This document shows positions 6,461 through 11,982 of a stretch of 64,000 nucleotides of DNA, piece by piece. The DNA lies in assembly GCF_002305895.1 (NCBI RefSeq), contig NZ_CP022203.1, positions 5,062,501 through 5,126,500 of the forward strand, read 5' to 3'. Under the pieces are notes generated by a model, which did not search any database, was not told where the DNA came from, and saw only the letters and a list, made by a program, of their open reading frames with translations. The stretch comes from Corallococcus macrosporus DSM 14697. GTDB lineage: Bacteria > Myxococcota > Myxococcia > Myxococcales > Myxococcaceae. Positions within the stretch are counted from its first letter, which is position 1; each line of letters opens with the position of its first letter. The translations under genes were made by a program, and so were the position numbers.

Positions 6461-8788
6461 TCAGGTCAGCCGGTCGATGGCCTGCGCGAGTACCTCCACG
6501 CCCAGCTCGCCCTTGACGAGGTACGCGTCCGCGCCCGCGTCCAACCCGCGCCGCTTGTCCTCGGGTGAGGCGAGCGACGACAGGATGATGACTGGAATCC
6601 GGGCCACCGCGGGCGTCGACTTGAGCCGCCGCGCCAGCGAGAACCCGTCCAGCTTGGGCATCTGCACGTCCGTGAGGATGAGGTCGTACGTGTTGTTCTG
6701 CACCTTCACGTAGGCCTCTTCGCCGTCCTGGGCCTCCTCCACCGAGTGCCCCAGCGCCTTCACCAGCGCCCCTTCCGTGGCGCGGGCGATGGGCGAGTCG
6801 TCCACCAGCAGCACCCGGAGGCGCTTGGCGGCCGGAGCCTGGGTGACGGGGCGGGCCATGCGGCGCACCTCCGCCATGATGTCCGGGACGTGCAGCAGCA
6901 CGGCGATGCGGCCGTCCTCCAGCGCCGCGGTGCCGGCGATGAAGGGCGCGCCCTTGAGGAACTCGCCGCCGCAGGGCTTCACGGCGACCTCGCGCTCGTC
7001 CACGAAGCCGTCCACCACCAGGGCCGCGTGGTCCTCGCCGTGACGCACCACCACGGCGGGCGGCTTGTCGAAGCGGTTGCCGCCGTTGAGGCCCAACAGC
7101 GGCCCCAGGGCCACCAGCGCCGTGGGCTTGCCCCGGTGCCGCACCGCCAGCGTGCCGAAGATTTCGAGCCGGTCATCCGGCTTGACGCGCATCACCGCTT
7201 CCACGTCCGCGGCGGGCATGCCGTAGACGTCATCGCCCAGGCGCACCAGCAGCACCTTCATCAACGCCAGCGACTGGGGCAGGCGCAGGGTGATGGTGGA
7301 GCCACGGCCAATGCGGCTGCTCACGCCCACGGAGCCGCCCAGCGTCTCCACCTTGCGCTTCACCACGTCCATGCCCACGCCGCGGCCGGACAGCTCGCTG
7401 ACCTGGTCGCGGGTGGAGAAGCCGGGGCGGAACATGAGCTCGATGGCCTCGCGCTCCGACAGCGCCGCGGCCTGCACCGCGGTGATGAGGCGCTTGGCGA
7501 CGGCGGCCTGGCGCAGCCGCTCCGGGTCGATGCCGCGGCCGTCGTCCTCCACCTCGATGTGGAGCATGTCGCCGTCCACGCGCACGCGGATGCGGATGCG
7601 GCCGTTGAGCGGCTTGCCCAGCTGCTGGCGCGTGTCCGGGGACTCCACGCCGTGGTCCACCGAGTTGCGCAGCAGGTGCACCAGCGCGTCGCGCACGTCG
7701 CCCAGCATGGACCGGTCCACGCCGATGTCGGCGTTCTCGATGACCAGGTCCACTTCCTTGCCCTGCGTGCGCGACATCTCCCGCACCGCGCGCGGGAAGG
7801 CGTCGAACACGGTGGACAGCGGCACCAGCCGGGCCTCGGCCACGTGGTCCGCCATCTTCGCCAGGTTGCCGTGCAGCGTGTTGATGCCGTCGTCGTTGCG
7901 GCGCACGAAGCGGAACGCGTCGTCGCGCAGCATGTGGAGGTCGCTCTCCACGCGGTCCAGCTGCTCACGGACCTCGACCGGGATGTCGAACACCTCCTCC
8001 GCCAGCCGGAGGAAGCGGTCCCCCAGGCGGCTGAAGCGCTCGAACAGCGCCTCCGTCTCCGAGCTGCGCAGCCGGCCGCGGGCGCTCTCCACCAGCAGGT
8101 CGCCCGCGAGCAACCCCAGCGAGTCGAGCACCTCCACGTTGACGCGGATGGTCCGGTCCGCCACCGCGGACTTCGCGGCGCTGGGGGCCTCCTCGTCACG
8201 GCCATGGGCCGCGGGCGGGTGATGCGCCCCTGCCGCCGGCTGCGCGGGCACGGCGGCGTTCCCCACCGGCGCGGCCACGGGGGCCTGCGGCGGAGGCGCG
8301 GCCACCGGAGCCTGCACCGGCGCGGGAGGCGCGGCCACGGCCACCGGCGCCGCGACAGGGGCCGGCGGCGCGGCGGGACGGGCGCCCGCGATGGCGGGCG
8401 GCGTCTGGCCGGAGACCTCCGCGAGCATGCGGACCATCTCCTCGCTGGCCGGGTTGCCCGTGTTCGCGCCGGACAAATCCTCGTTCAGGTCGGAGAGGAC
8501 GTCGCACGCCCTGAGCAGGACGTCGGTGGCCACCTCCGTGGCCGTCTTGCCCTCGCGCTCCGCGCGCAGGACGTCCTCGGCGGCGTGCGCGAGCTGCCCG
8601 ATGGCGGCCAGGCCCAACATGCGGGCCTCGCCCTTCATCGTGTGCAGCTCGCGCGCGACGTCCTCCGCGGCCTGGTCCGCGGTCTCCTTCTCCAGGTCCA
8701 GTACCCCCAGTTGAATCTTCTGGAGGCGGTCGGCGGTGACCTCCTGGAACTTCTTCAGGAGGGATTTCTTGAGAGCCTCGGTGTCCAT
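6461..8788 (-). CDS. frzE: FrzE, CheA-CheY hybrid histidine kinase
   Basis: The central kinase of the Frz reversal pathway, 775 residues. Domain order: Hpt domain with phospho-accepting His49 in ELHTMKGEARMLGL; Pro/Ala linker (about 135-200); dimerisation domain; kinase core with N-box LLRNSVDHGVESP, G1 EDDGRGIDPERL and G2 LSGRGVGMDVVKRKV; CheW-like domain; and a C-terminal receiver with Asp707 in ILTDVQMPKLDGF. In M. xanthus the receiver regulates FrzE kinase activity and the phosphoryl group passes on to FrzZ. The start at ATG 8788 lies 33 bases after the frzCD stop. All key residues are intact. Confidence 0.96.
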   Translation of the reverse strand: MDTEALKKSLLKKFQEVTADRLQKIQLGVLDLEKETADQAAEDVARELHTMKGEARMLGLAAIGQLAHAAEDVLRAEREGKTATEVATDVLLRACDVLSDLNEDLSGANTGNPASEEMVRMLAEVSGQTPPAIAGARPAAPPAPVAAPVAVAAPPAPVQAPVAAPPPQAPVAAPVGNAAVPAQPAAGAHHPPAAHGRDEEAPSAAKSAVADRTIRVNVEVLDSLGLLAGDLLVESARGRLRSSETEALFERFSRLGDRFLRLAEEVFDIPVEVREQLDRVESDLHMLRDDAFRFVRRNDDGINTLHGNLAKMADHVAEARLVPLSTVFDAFPRAVREMSRTQGKEVDLVIENADIGVDRSMLGDVRDALVHLLRNSVDHGVESPDTRQQLGKPLNGRIRIRVRVDGDMLHIEVEDDGRGIDPERLRQAAVAKRLITAVQAAALSEREAIELMFRPGFSTRDQVSELSGRGVGMDVVKRKVETLGGSVGVSSRIGRGSTITLRLPQSLALMKVLLVRLGDDVYGMPAADVEAVMRVKPDDRLEIFGTLAVRHRGKPTALVALGPLLGLNGGNRFDKPPAVVVRHGEDHAALVVDGFVDEREVAVKPCGGEFLKGAPFIAGTAALEDGRIAVLLHVPDIMAEVRRMARPVTQAPAAKRLRVLLVDDSPIARATEGALVKALGHSVEEAQDGEEAYVKVQNNTYDLILTDVQMPKLDGFSLARRLKSTPAVARIPVIILSSLASPEDKRRGLDAGADAYLVKGELGVEVLAQAIDRLT

Positions 8789-8821
8789 GGCCGGCGTACG
8801 CCCCTCCCCTTCCAGGAAGCG

Positions 8822-10075
8822 CTAGTCGGCCTTGAACCGCTTGATGAGCTCGGCCAGCCGTCCGGCCAGCTGCGTCAGCTCCGCGGCCGCGCCGGTGGCC
8901 TGCTTCGACGCCTGCGTCGTCTGGCGCGTCACGTCCTCGATCTCCGCCATGGAGGCCACCACCTGCTCGGTGGCCGTGCGCTGCTGCTGCGTGGCGAGGT
9001 TGATGACGCGGGCCGCGTCGCTCGTCTCCTGGACACCGGCGAGGATGCCTTCCACCGCCTGCGCCGCCACCGCGCCCAGCTTCTCACCGGACTCCGTGGC
9101 GGCCTTGGACGCCTCGGCGGCGCCGGCCGCGGCGGCCGTGGCCTCGCGGATCTCGGTGATGAGGTTCTTGATCTCCTTGGTGGAGTCCAGGACGTTCTCC
9201 GCCAGGCGCCGCATCTCCGCCGCGACGATGGAGAAGCCCTTGCCGGCCTCACCCGCGCGGCTGCCTTCCAGCGCCGCGTTCAGCGCCAGCAGGTCGGAGC
9301 GGTCCGCGATCTCGTCGATGACCTCCACCACCGTGCCGATGCGCTCCACGCGCTTGGACAGCTTCGCGATGGAGTCCGCCACGGCGACGCCGTCGCTGCG
9401 GATCTGCTGCATGGCCTGGATGAACTCGCCAATGGCGCCCCGGCCCGCGCGCGCCGCGCCCAGCGTCTCCTCCGCCACGCGCGCCACGCTGCCCGCGTTC
9501 TCGGCGATCTGCGCCGACGCGTGCTTCAGCTCCTCCATGGTGGCGGTCGTCTCGTGGATGGCCGCCGCCTGCTCCGTGGAGGACGTCTCGTGCTGCGTGG
9601 AGGCCGCCAGCACCTGGTTGGCGGACGAGGACAGGCGCAGCGCCGCCTCGTTGATCTCCCGCACGAAGGTGCGCAGCGTCTCGATGACCTTGCCGAAGCC
9701 CTCCAGCAGGGGCCCGAGCTGGGGGTCTTCCGTGGTGGTGTTCCACCGCGACAGGTCGCCCTCGCGCACCAGGCTGATGAGCGAATCCAGCGCCTGGTCG
9801 ATCTCCTGCGCCGCCACGTGCTTGCGGTGCTCGGAGGCGGCGAACTGGTCCAGCACCTGGTTGAGCAGGTGCGCCAGCTCCGCGCCGGACTCACCCACCA
9901 GCTCCTTGGGCACGCGGGCCTGGAGGTTGCCGGACAGCACCGTCAGCAGCGTGTCGGTGATGGCCTTGGTGGAGGAGACGGTCGACGCCGCGTTGGTGGC
10001 ACCGGCCTTGGAGGCGGGGGCCTTCCGGGCGCGAGCCTTGGCAGCGGGCTTCTCGTTGGGGGTGTCCAGGGACAT
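8822..10075 (-). CDS. frzCD: FrzCD, cytoplasmic methyl-accepting chemoreceptor
   Basis: A 417-residue soluble chemoreceptor, the length I recall for M. xanthus FrzCD. There is no membrane segment or periplasmic sensor domain. The N-terminus is Lys/Ala-rich (KPAAKARARKAPASKAG), a region implicated in nucleoid binding in M. xanthus. It is followed by a helical region and a conserved MCP signalling hairpin around IADRSDLLALNAALEGSRAG. The ATG at 10075 has AAGGAAGG upstream. The gene sits five bases after frzB. Glutamate-rich heptads flanking the hairpin are the expected methylation helices served by FrzF and FrzG. Confidence 0.97.
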   Translation of the reverse strand: MSLDTPNEKPAAKARARKAPASKAGATNAASTVSSTKAITDTLLTVLSGNLQARVPKELVGESGAELAHLLNQVLDQFAASEHRKHVAAQEIDQALDSLISLVREGDLSRWNTTTEDPQLGPLLEGFGKVIETLRTFVREINEAALRLSSSANQVLAASTQHETSSTEQAAAIHETTATMEELKHASAQIAENAGSVARVAEETLGAARAGRGAIGEFIQAMQQIRSDGVAVADSIAKLSKRVERIGTVVEVIDEIADRSDLLALNAALEGSRAGEAGKGFSIVAAEMRRLAENVLDSTKEIKNLITEIREATAAAAGAAEASKAATESGEKLGAVAAQAVEGILAGVQETSDAARVINLATQQQRTATEQVVASMAEIEDVTRQTTQASKQATGAAAELTQLAGRLAELIKRFKAD

Positions 10076-10080
10076 GTGTC

Positions 10081-10455
10081 TCAGTGCCTTCCTTGAGTCC
10101 TTGCGGTTTCGACCAGGTCGATGAGCAGCACGGTGCGGGCCTCTTCCAGGCACACACCGACTGCGTAGGCTGCGGCGCCGGCCGTGGGGGGCATCCGGCG
10201 CAGGGAATTGACGGGGATGGAGCGCACGCCGTGCACGGCGTCCACCTTGAGGTGGGCCTCGCCCTCCGGGGTGTCGAAGACGATGGCCCGGTTGCCCCGG
10301 TGGGGCAGCCCCAGCTCCGCCAGCGTGAGGTCCTCCGGCAGCGCGCGGTCGATGCGCAGCACCTGGGACGCGTCCGTGCCGTAGAGCGTGGCGCCGATGT
10401 CGAAGAAGAGCAGGTCCACCTCTTCCTCCTTCTCATGGAGGGCGTCGTCGTTCAT
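10081..10455 (-). CDS. frzB: FrzB, CheW-like coupling protein
   Basis: A 124-residue CheW-family protein, part of the receptor-kinase arm of the Frz system. After an acidic N-terminus (HEKEEEVDLL) come the CheW folds: FFDIGATLYGTDASQVLRI, a LGLPHRGNRAIVFD segment and the C-terminal TVLLIDLVE. The ATG overlaps the frzA stop as ATGA, implying translational coupling. The domain is short and divergent compared with FrzA, in line with reports that FrzB does not simply bridge receptor and FrzE. Confidence 0.92.
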   Translation of the reverse strand: MNDDALHEKEEEVDLLFFDIGATLYGTDASQVLRIDRALPEDLTLAELGLPHRGNRAIVFDTPEGEAHLKVDAVHGVRSIPVNSLRRMPPTAGAAAYAVGVCLEEARTVLLIDLVETARTQGRH

Positions 10456-10934
10456 CGCGCCACCGCCCGCTGCCGCGCCGTCTGGAGCAGCTTGGAGAAG
10501 TTGAGGAGGTTGATGGCCTCCTGGTTGCCGCTGGCCTGCACCACGCCCAGCAGGTGCTCGGCCGCGGCGTCCCCGCCCAGGGGCGGTGGGAGGATGTCCG
10601 CCACGGGAACGCGGCGCAACCCCAGCACCGTGTCCGCGACGACGCCGGCCACGTAGCTGCCCGTGACGCCGACGAACAGCCGGGTGCGCGGGCCAATGCG
10701 GGCCTCCCCCTTGGAGAGGAAGCGCAGCAGGTCCAGCACCGGGAGCACCTCACCCCGGTGACCGGTGACGCCCATGATGAAGGACGGGGTGCGCGGCAGG
10801 GGCGTGAGCAGCCCGGCCCGGAGCACTTCGAGCACGTTCTCACTGGGCACGCCCAGGCGGAGGTCGCCCACGCGGAAGCAGAAGAACTCCTGCTCCGGCC
10901 GGGCCTGGGCGGCCAAGGCGCGGTCCGGAGCCAT
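10452..10934 (-). CDS. frzA: FrzA, CheW coupling protein
   Basis: A 160-residue CheW homologue that couples FrzCD to FrzE. The core is typical: FFCFRVGDLRLGVPSENVLEV, then FIMGVTGHRGEVLPVLDLLRF and VGVTGSYVAGVVADTVLGL. I chose ATG 10934. An in-frame TTG at 10973 lies only nine bases past the likely -10 element, so it falls at or before the transcription start. First gene of the frz operon, divergent from frzZ. Confidence 0.93.
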   Translation of the reverse strand: MAPDRALAAQARPEQEFFCFRVGDLRLGVPSENVLEVLRAGLLTPLPRTPSFIMGVTGHRGEVLPVLDLLRFLSKGEARIGPRTRLFVGVTGSYVAGVVADTVLGLRRVPVADILPPPLGGDAAAEHLLGVVQASGNQEAINLLNFSKLLQTARQRAVAR

Positions 10935-10981
10935 CCGGAGTGCTCGCTGGAGGGGAGTCGAGGTCGTGGTCAAGGCGCCAA

Positions 10982-11010
10982 AGTATCCGGAGGCGACGAA
11001 TAGCGGTCAA
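10982..11010 (-). promoter_or_regulatory. Sigma-70-type promoter of the frz operon
   Basis: On the minus strand TTGACC (11010-11005) is separated by exactly 17 bases from GATACT (10987-10982). These match the -35 and -10 consensus at 5/6 and 4/6 positions. Transcription would begin near 10975, leaving a leader of about 40 bases before the frzA ATG. Seen in sequence; activity is inferred. Confidence 0.6.
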
Positions 11011-11104: not shown

Positions 11105-11982
11105 ATGTCGCGCGTACTGGTCATTGACGACAGCCCGATGCTGGTGGAGCTCACCGTCCGGGCACTCACCGCCGCCGGCTACCAGGCGAGCGGCGCGCAG
11201 GACCTGGCCAGCCTCGAGCAGAAGCTCGCCGAGGGGCCGTTCGCGCTCATCCTCATGGACGTCAACATGCCGGAGATGTTCGGCGATGACGTCGTGGAGT
11301 ACCTCCGCCGCCAGAAGAAGGTCACCGCGAAGCTGGTCCTCTATTCCGACATCTCCGAGGCGGAGCTGGACGGGAAGACGAAGGCGTCCGGGGCGGATGG
11401 CTACATCCTGAAGAGCGGCGGGCTGGAGGCCGTGCTGGGCGGGGTCATGGGTCTCATCGGCCCCCCTGCCCTGGGTGTCCCCACCGCGGTGCCCGCGCCG
11501 GCCGCGGCCCCGTCGCCGCGCCCGCAGCGCCGGCGCCGGCCCCCAGCGCTCCCGCCGCCGCCCCCGCCGCGACGGGCCTCAAGGCCGCGCCCACCACGGG
11601 CGGGCGCAAGCCGCGCATCCTCATCGTGGATGACAGCGAGATGACGGCCCGCATCATTGAAGCGGACCTGGTGGCCAAGGGCTTCGAGGTCCACGTCGCC
11701 GACACGGCCGACAAGGCCACGAAGATCATCCTCAAGAAGCAGACGCGCCCGGACCTGGTGCTGCTGGATGTGCGCATGCCCAACGTGAACGGCGAGCAGT
11801 TCTGCCGCTTCATCAAGAGCAACAGCCTCTTCAAGGGCATCAAGGTGCTGCTGTGCTCCGGGGAGAACGTCGAGGAGCTGCAGCGCATCTGCCGCGAGGC
11901 GGGCGCCGACGGCTACATCCCCAAGGACGCGGTGATGGGGAACCTGGTGGCCAAGGAGCTGATGCCCACCGGCAACGAGTAG
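11105..11982 (+). CDS. frzZ: FrzZ, dual response-receiver protein, interrupted by a frameshift in the linker
   Basis: The output protein of the Frz pathway, with two CheY-like receivers joined by an Ala/Pro linker. ATG 11105 has GAGGAGG upstream. Receiver 1 (RVLVIDDSPM, phospho-Asp in LILMDVNMPEMFGDD) is in one frame. Receiver 2 (RILIVDDSEM, VLLDVRMPNVNGE) is in the -1 frame. As given, the first frame becomes Arg-rich after 11511 and stops at 11644, giving 179 residues. The other frame reads a clean Ala/Pro linker from there (VAAPAAPAPAPSAP). One missing C in the CCCC run at 11508-11511 explains it. Restoring it gives 292 residues, near the M. xanthus length of about 290. It may be a sequencing error, a real mutation or recoding. 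Confidence 0.85.

Follow-up and report, generated by a model that had tools for sequence, protein, structure and literature searches.

In the deposited genome sequence of Myxococcus macrosporus DSM 14697 (listed as Corallococcus macrosporus), the motility-signaling gene frzZ does not encode its two receiver domains in one reading frame. This raises the question of whether the strain produces the two halves of this Frz regulator separately, joins them by recoding, has recently lost the second one, or carries an ordinary frzZ from which the assembly has dropped a base. We addressed this question by analyzing the deposited gene, its relatives, and the frequency of comparable frame breaks in the same genome.

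Organization of frzZ and its neighborhood

The gene lies in a window of 64,000 nt at genome positions 5,062,501-5,126,500, the whole stretch of DNA analyzed here, to which all positions refer unless genome coordinates are given. It shares with other FrzZ proteins (dual-receiver Frz regulators) the two receivers, the Asp residue in both, the Ala/Pro linker, and a location adjoining the frz cluster in divergent orientation. The frzB/frzA/frzCD/frzE-like genes of this cluster are found at 6464-11006 on the opposite strand. No frame breaks were found in the rest of the frz cluster within the window, either in the scans against a congener or, for FrzE and its linker, by inspection of the frame. The intact FrzE-like linker serves as a control, which shows that Ala/Pro linkers are not all broken. 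The relevant features are as follows.

6464..8821, minus strand: FrzE-like gene (CheA-CheY), an intact open frame of 786 codons that likewise contains an Ala/Pro linker (up to 75% Ala+Pro)
10452..10973, minus strand: neighboring frz gene, CheW-like, in the frzB position, intact, divergent from frzZ and without a frame switch in the scans
11105..11644, plus strand: 5' part of frzZ as deposited, with receiver 1 (Asp52), linker, out-of-frame Arg/Pro-rich tail, and stop at 11642-11644
11455..11610, plus strand: Ala/Pro-rich linker between the receivers, site of the frame change; linkers of congeners contain 64-70% Ala+Pro and vary in length
11501..11521, plus strand: interval most likely holding the frame change, with the C4 run at 11508-11511 as one candidate
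11611..11982, plus strand: 3' part of frzZ as deposited, with receiver 2 in the other frame, Asp codon at 11767, and stop at 11980-11982
11626..11628, plus strand: GTG, putative separate start of receiver 2, lacking a Shine-Dalgarno sequence and encoding the Val of the intradomain IVDDS motif

As deposited, frzZ measures 878 nt (292 x 3 + 2), and its reading frame is broken by one base within the Ala/Pro linker, leaving receiver 1 (from 11105) and receiver 2 (to 11982) in different frames. The frame starting at ATG 11105 encodes 179 aa: an intact receiver 1 (MSRVLVIDDSPML...) with Asp52 within LILMDVNMPEM is followed by the Ala/Pro linker, which turns Arg-rich before the stop at 11642-11644. 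Receiver 2 (RKPRILIVDDSEMT...) is intact as well, with its Asp within LLDVRMPN (codon at 11767), and its frame contains stops at 11125, 11287, and 11980 only, being open from 11290 on. The Pfam domain PF00072 (Response_reg) matches both halves with E-values of 2e-16 and 2e-20, and the phospho-acceptor Asp is present in each receiver. The initial annotation had described a frzZ with a one-base break in its linker and with two intact, conserved receivers in different frames; both points are borne out, the latter also by the mostly synonymous substitutions described below.

The two frames overlap across the linker, the receiver 1 frame being open to 11641 and the receiver 2 frame from 11290. A single-base length change therefore accounts for the split, as was proposed initially. 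Its placement at the CCCC run (11508-11511) needs to be relaxed: both frames give an Ala/Pro-like reading over approximately 11501-11521, so the change could sit anywhere in this interval without any single base being fixed, and the C4 run is a possible site but not the sole one.

Conservation of frzZ among relatives

DNA of frzZ was found in all 27 genus genomes examined, DSM 14697 included. Orthology of the present gene with frzZ is predicted from a DNA identity of 92-93% across its whole length, and apart from the break in the deposited sequence it is an ordinary frzZ. All 21 full-length Myxococcus orthologs, each with the gene on one contig, have a length of 852-879 nt that is divisible by three and lack an internal stop. 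Their linkers join the receivers in one frame, unlike that of the deposited 878 nt, and the frame break in DSM 14697 is therefore not attributable to chance. The 20 full-length loci taken from named records, with identities as low as 46%, likewise all have a single open frame; they represent Myxococcus, Pyxidicoccus, Citreicoccus, Corallococcus, Hyalangium, Archangium, and more distant MAGs, and partly derive from the same genomes as the set of 21 congeners.

Across the relatives, the linker is highly variable in length and sequence while the receivers are nearly constant. Those of DSM 14697 are nearly identical to the receivers of its congeners, and the protein sequence of the receiver 2 part (11611..11982) is identical to that of close congeners. 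Besides the one-base break, the gene differs from frzZ elsewhere only in a linker that is slightly longer than in several congeners. Substitutions relative to congeners are overwhelmingly synonymous, with ratios of synonymous to nonsynonymous changes from 14:1 to 21:3 in receiver 1 and from 10:0 to 16:3 in receiver 2. Judged by these ratios, purifying selection is acting on both receivers, with no sign of decay. Such receivers, together with unbroken relatives, speak against both an ancient loss and recoding as an ancestral trait. The comparison with sister genomes, proposed at the outset as a check, thus points to an error or, less likely, to a very recent private mutation. A second M. macrosporus strain was not found in the collections searched, and the text of a signaling survey covering DSM 14697 contains no mention of frz.

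Two observations on the relatives stand apart. Two Archangium FrzZ proteins (L107:303-1880 and L115:267-1900) contain, in one open frame, a linker of about 290-340 residues made of Pro/Ala/Arg-rich repeats, compared to about 40-45 residues in Myxococcus, with almost unchanged receivers; the linker length thus seems nearly free. In addition, a contig titled ‘Comamonas sp. KCTC 72670’ (L079) carries a typical Myxococcus frzZ with 94% identity, and this record is probably misnamed.

Assembly method and frame breaks elsewhere in the genome

The genome of M. macrosporus DSM 14697 is a single contig of 8,973,512 bp, sequenced with two PacBio RSII SMRT cells and assembled with HGAP at 83-fold coverage, and short-read polishing is unmentioned (PMC5629066). 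Its authors used BLASTP to spot possible frameshifts and dropped the genes concerned from the annotation (PMC5629066). The effect of such a procedure on GC-rich DNA is illustrated by Streptomyces albus SM254 (73% GC), in which HGAP/Quiver at 262x left 205 indels that were corrected with Illumina data, nearly all of them within G or C homopolymers (PMC4832174). The frzZ break resembles the errors of such PacBio-only assemblies before Illumina polishing in being a single-base length change in a C-rich context of an HGAP assembly with a GC content of about 71%. Two features expected of a consensus error are indeed present, namely long noisy reads without short-read polishing (PMC5629066) and another break of the same type in the assembly, a second gene that is one base short in an Ala/Pro linker.

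This second gene emerged from a comparison of three 400-kb stretches (4.9-5.3, 1.0-1.4, and 3.0-3.4 Mb) with a colinear congener (G024), the first stretch being compared with a further congener (G007) as well; the resulting break rate accordingly rests on 1.2 Mb and not on 9 Mb. A strict scan, in which coding-like substitution patterns were demanded on both sides of the switch, returned one switch per 400-kb stretch in DSM 14697, of which frzZ alone survived inspection. A relaxed scan of about 670 open reading frames (930 kb of aligned coding sequence) returned 23 candidates. Inspection of the alignments left two genuine breaks, frzZ and the gene listed below, while the remaining candidates resemble starts of genes or frames extended antisense through non-coding DNA. 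A first-pass figure of seven to eight breaks per 400 kb was dropped, since alignment revealed nearly all of them as stop-to-stop extensions, upstream or antisense, through non-coding DNA. At the level of the scan, the single-contig genome of G007 (9.49 Mb) shows two candidate frame switches of its own in conserved genes relative to DSM 14697 over a 400-kb stretch (L158-L177).

Genome positions 1,359,067-1,361,777, minus strand: DnaJ/TPR-type gene (L262; function judged by eye from the sequence), second break

The deposited match of the DnaJ/TPR-type gene is 2711 nt long, which leaves a remainder of 2 as in frzZ, i.e., it is one base short, and the gene is split in an Ala/Pro/Gly linker. In three congeners (G022, G023, and G024), it has a length divisible by three and a single frame. 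Stretches of 40 codons in which Ala+Pro reach at least 50% account for 1.2% of codons. Both breaks fall in this type of linker, which points to a cause tied to the type of sequence, be it base-calling in C/G runs or slippage. The frzZ break was known beforehand, so that the independent evidence is the DnaJ/TPR-type gene alone, and a break in an Ala/Pro linker, where all frames remain open, may be detected more readily.

Linkers of this kind are also a hard spot in draft genomes. In 13 drafts (M. vastator, Myxococcus sp. CA023, M. xanthus AM003, Pyxidicoccus fallax, strain AM401, Archangium violaceum, and seven Corallococcus), contigs end within the frzZ linker, with the receivers on different contigs or only one of them found; Illumina drafts break within the linker of the DnaJ/TPR-type gene too. 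The secondary structure of the linker DNA shows no excess over shuffled sequences (z 0.00). The linker thus folds no better than shuffled DNA, and composition rather than a special structure is therefore likely behind the contig breaks. These are mostly a matter of short-read trouble and have only an indirect bearing on PacBio data. Surveys of draft genomes may nevertheless score frzZ as split or missing (L094-L122, 13 drafts).

Recoding, separate receivers, mutation, or error

It hardly deserves credence that programmed -1 ribosomal frameshifting, or transcriptional slippage, at the C run yields a 179-residue and a full-length form, although a short C run lies near the meeting point of the frames and the step into the downstream frame is -1, as in dnaX-type frameshifting. 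Unlike in dnaX-type systems, inspection of 11501-11521 revealed no slippery heptamer (X XXY YYZ) in the correct phase, and the downstream RNA fold, with no excess over 200 shuffles (z 0.18), is what base composition gives. Conservation is also absent: the frame offset occurs in none of the 21 congeners and none of the 20 named loci, all relatives encoding the long form unshifted. A C4 run is, moreover, far shorter than the runs known to cause polymerase slippage. We consider it just as implausible that receiver 1 stands alone and receiver 2 is re-initiated at GTG 11626, from which a 118-aa open reading frame mechanically begins. This GTG encodes the Val of IVDDS inside the receiver; the frame starting there is therefore not a whole receiver, as beta strand 1 would be missing. 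Furthermore, the 20 bases upstream of it contain no Shine-Dalgarno sequence, and the receiver 2 frame holds no other ATG, GTG, or TTG from its stop at 11287 up to the domain. Recoding at the C run and a separate receiver 2, both raised in the initial annotation, thus find no backing. The same applies to the uncoupling of the two receivers as a biological state, which lacks a usable receiver 2 start and is shared by no relative.

A real, recent, strain-specific frameshift is unlikely but deserves more weight. Receiver 1 with an Arg/Pro-rich tail (179 aa) would then be made and receiver 2 lost, leaving a viable strain with a partial or complete FrzZ deficiency. Slippage occurs naturally at C-run microrepeats, and mutations of this kind can arise in type strains during their maintenance in collections; replication slippage in C runs would give the same picture as an error. 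Loss of frzZ appears tolerable, since M. xanthus frzZ mutants retain Frz-dependent reversals at a lower frequency, FrzZ raising the gain of the pathway, and since D52 of receiver 1 is important for polar localization in M. xanthus, while D220 is not (PMC4546325). There is accordingly a small chance that DSM 14697 is a natural low-gain reversal strain with a broken frzZ, which has only a free receiver 1 and still fruits. Several points stand against a real frameshift. Receiver 2 shows no decay, the break is common to none of the 21 congeners and 20 named loci, a second gene has the same type of break, and errors of this type are predicted by the sequencing method (PMC5629066, PMC4832174). In addition, DSM 14697 formed fruiting bodies prior to sequencing (PMC5629066), though fruiting alone may not need FrzZ.

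The frame break in frzZ thus very probably reflects an error, namely the loss of one base from the consensus of a PacBio-only assembly. The observations behind this reading are the break as deposited, the unbroken frames of all relatives, the intact receivers, the PacBio RSII-only assembly method, and the second break of the same type; they support the sequencing error that had been named initially as the simplest alternative. Some considerations weigh against an error. With only two genuine breaks in approximately 930 kb of aligned coding sequence, the assembly is fairly clean, which makes an error in any given gene rare a priori. The Ala/Pro linker of FrzE in the same window is intact, and the contig breaks in Illumina drafts reflect short-read difficulty, a different failure from a PacBio indel.

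With a consensus error as the cause, the missing base would belong to the Ala/Pro linker, rich in GC and in C runs, of a frzZ gene that is ordinary in other respects, and a normal FrzZ, about 292 residues long and with its receivers joined, is most likely produced in the cell. By analogy with M. xanthus, this protein would be phosphorylated by FrzE and act upstream of RomR/MglA. If the break were real instead, this fruiting reference strain, a relative of M. xanthus, would amount to a naturally occurring frzZ mutant in which the role of receiver 2 in reversal control could be studied. If it is an error, frzZ is expected to be missing from the original annotation by the procedure of the authors, other genes with long Ala/Pro linkers may be hit likewise, and surveys could wrongly call the Frz output regulator absent from the species.
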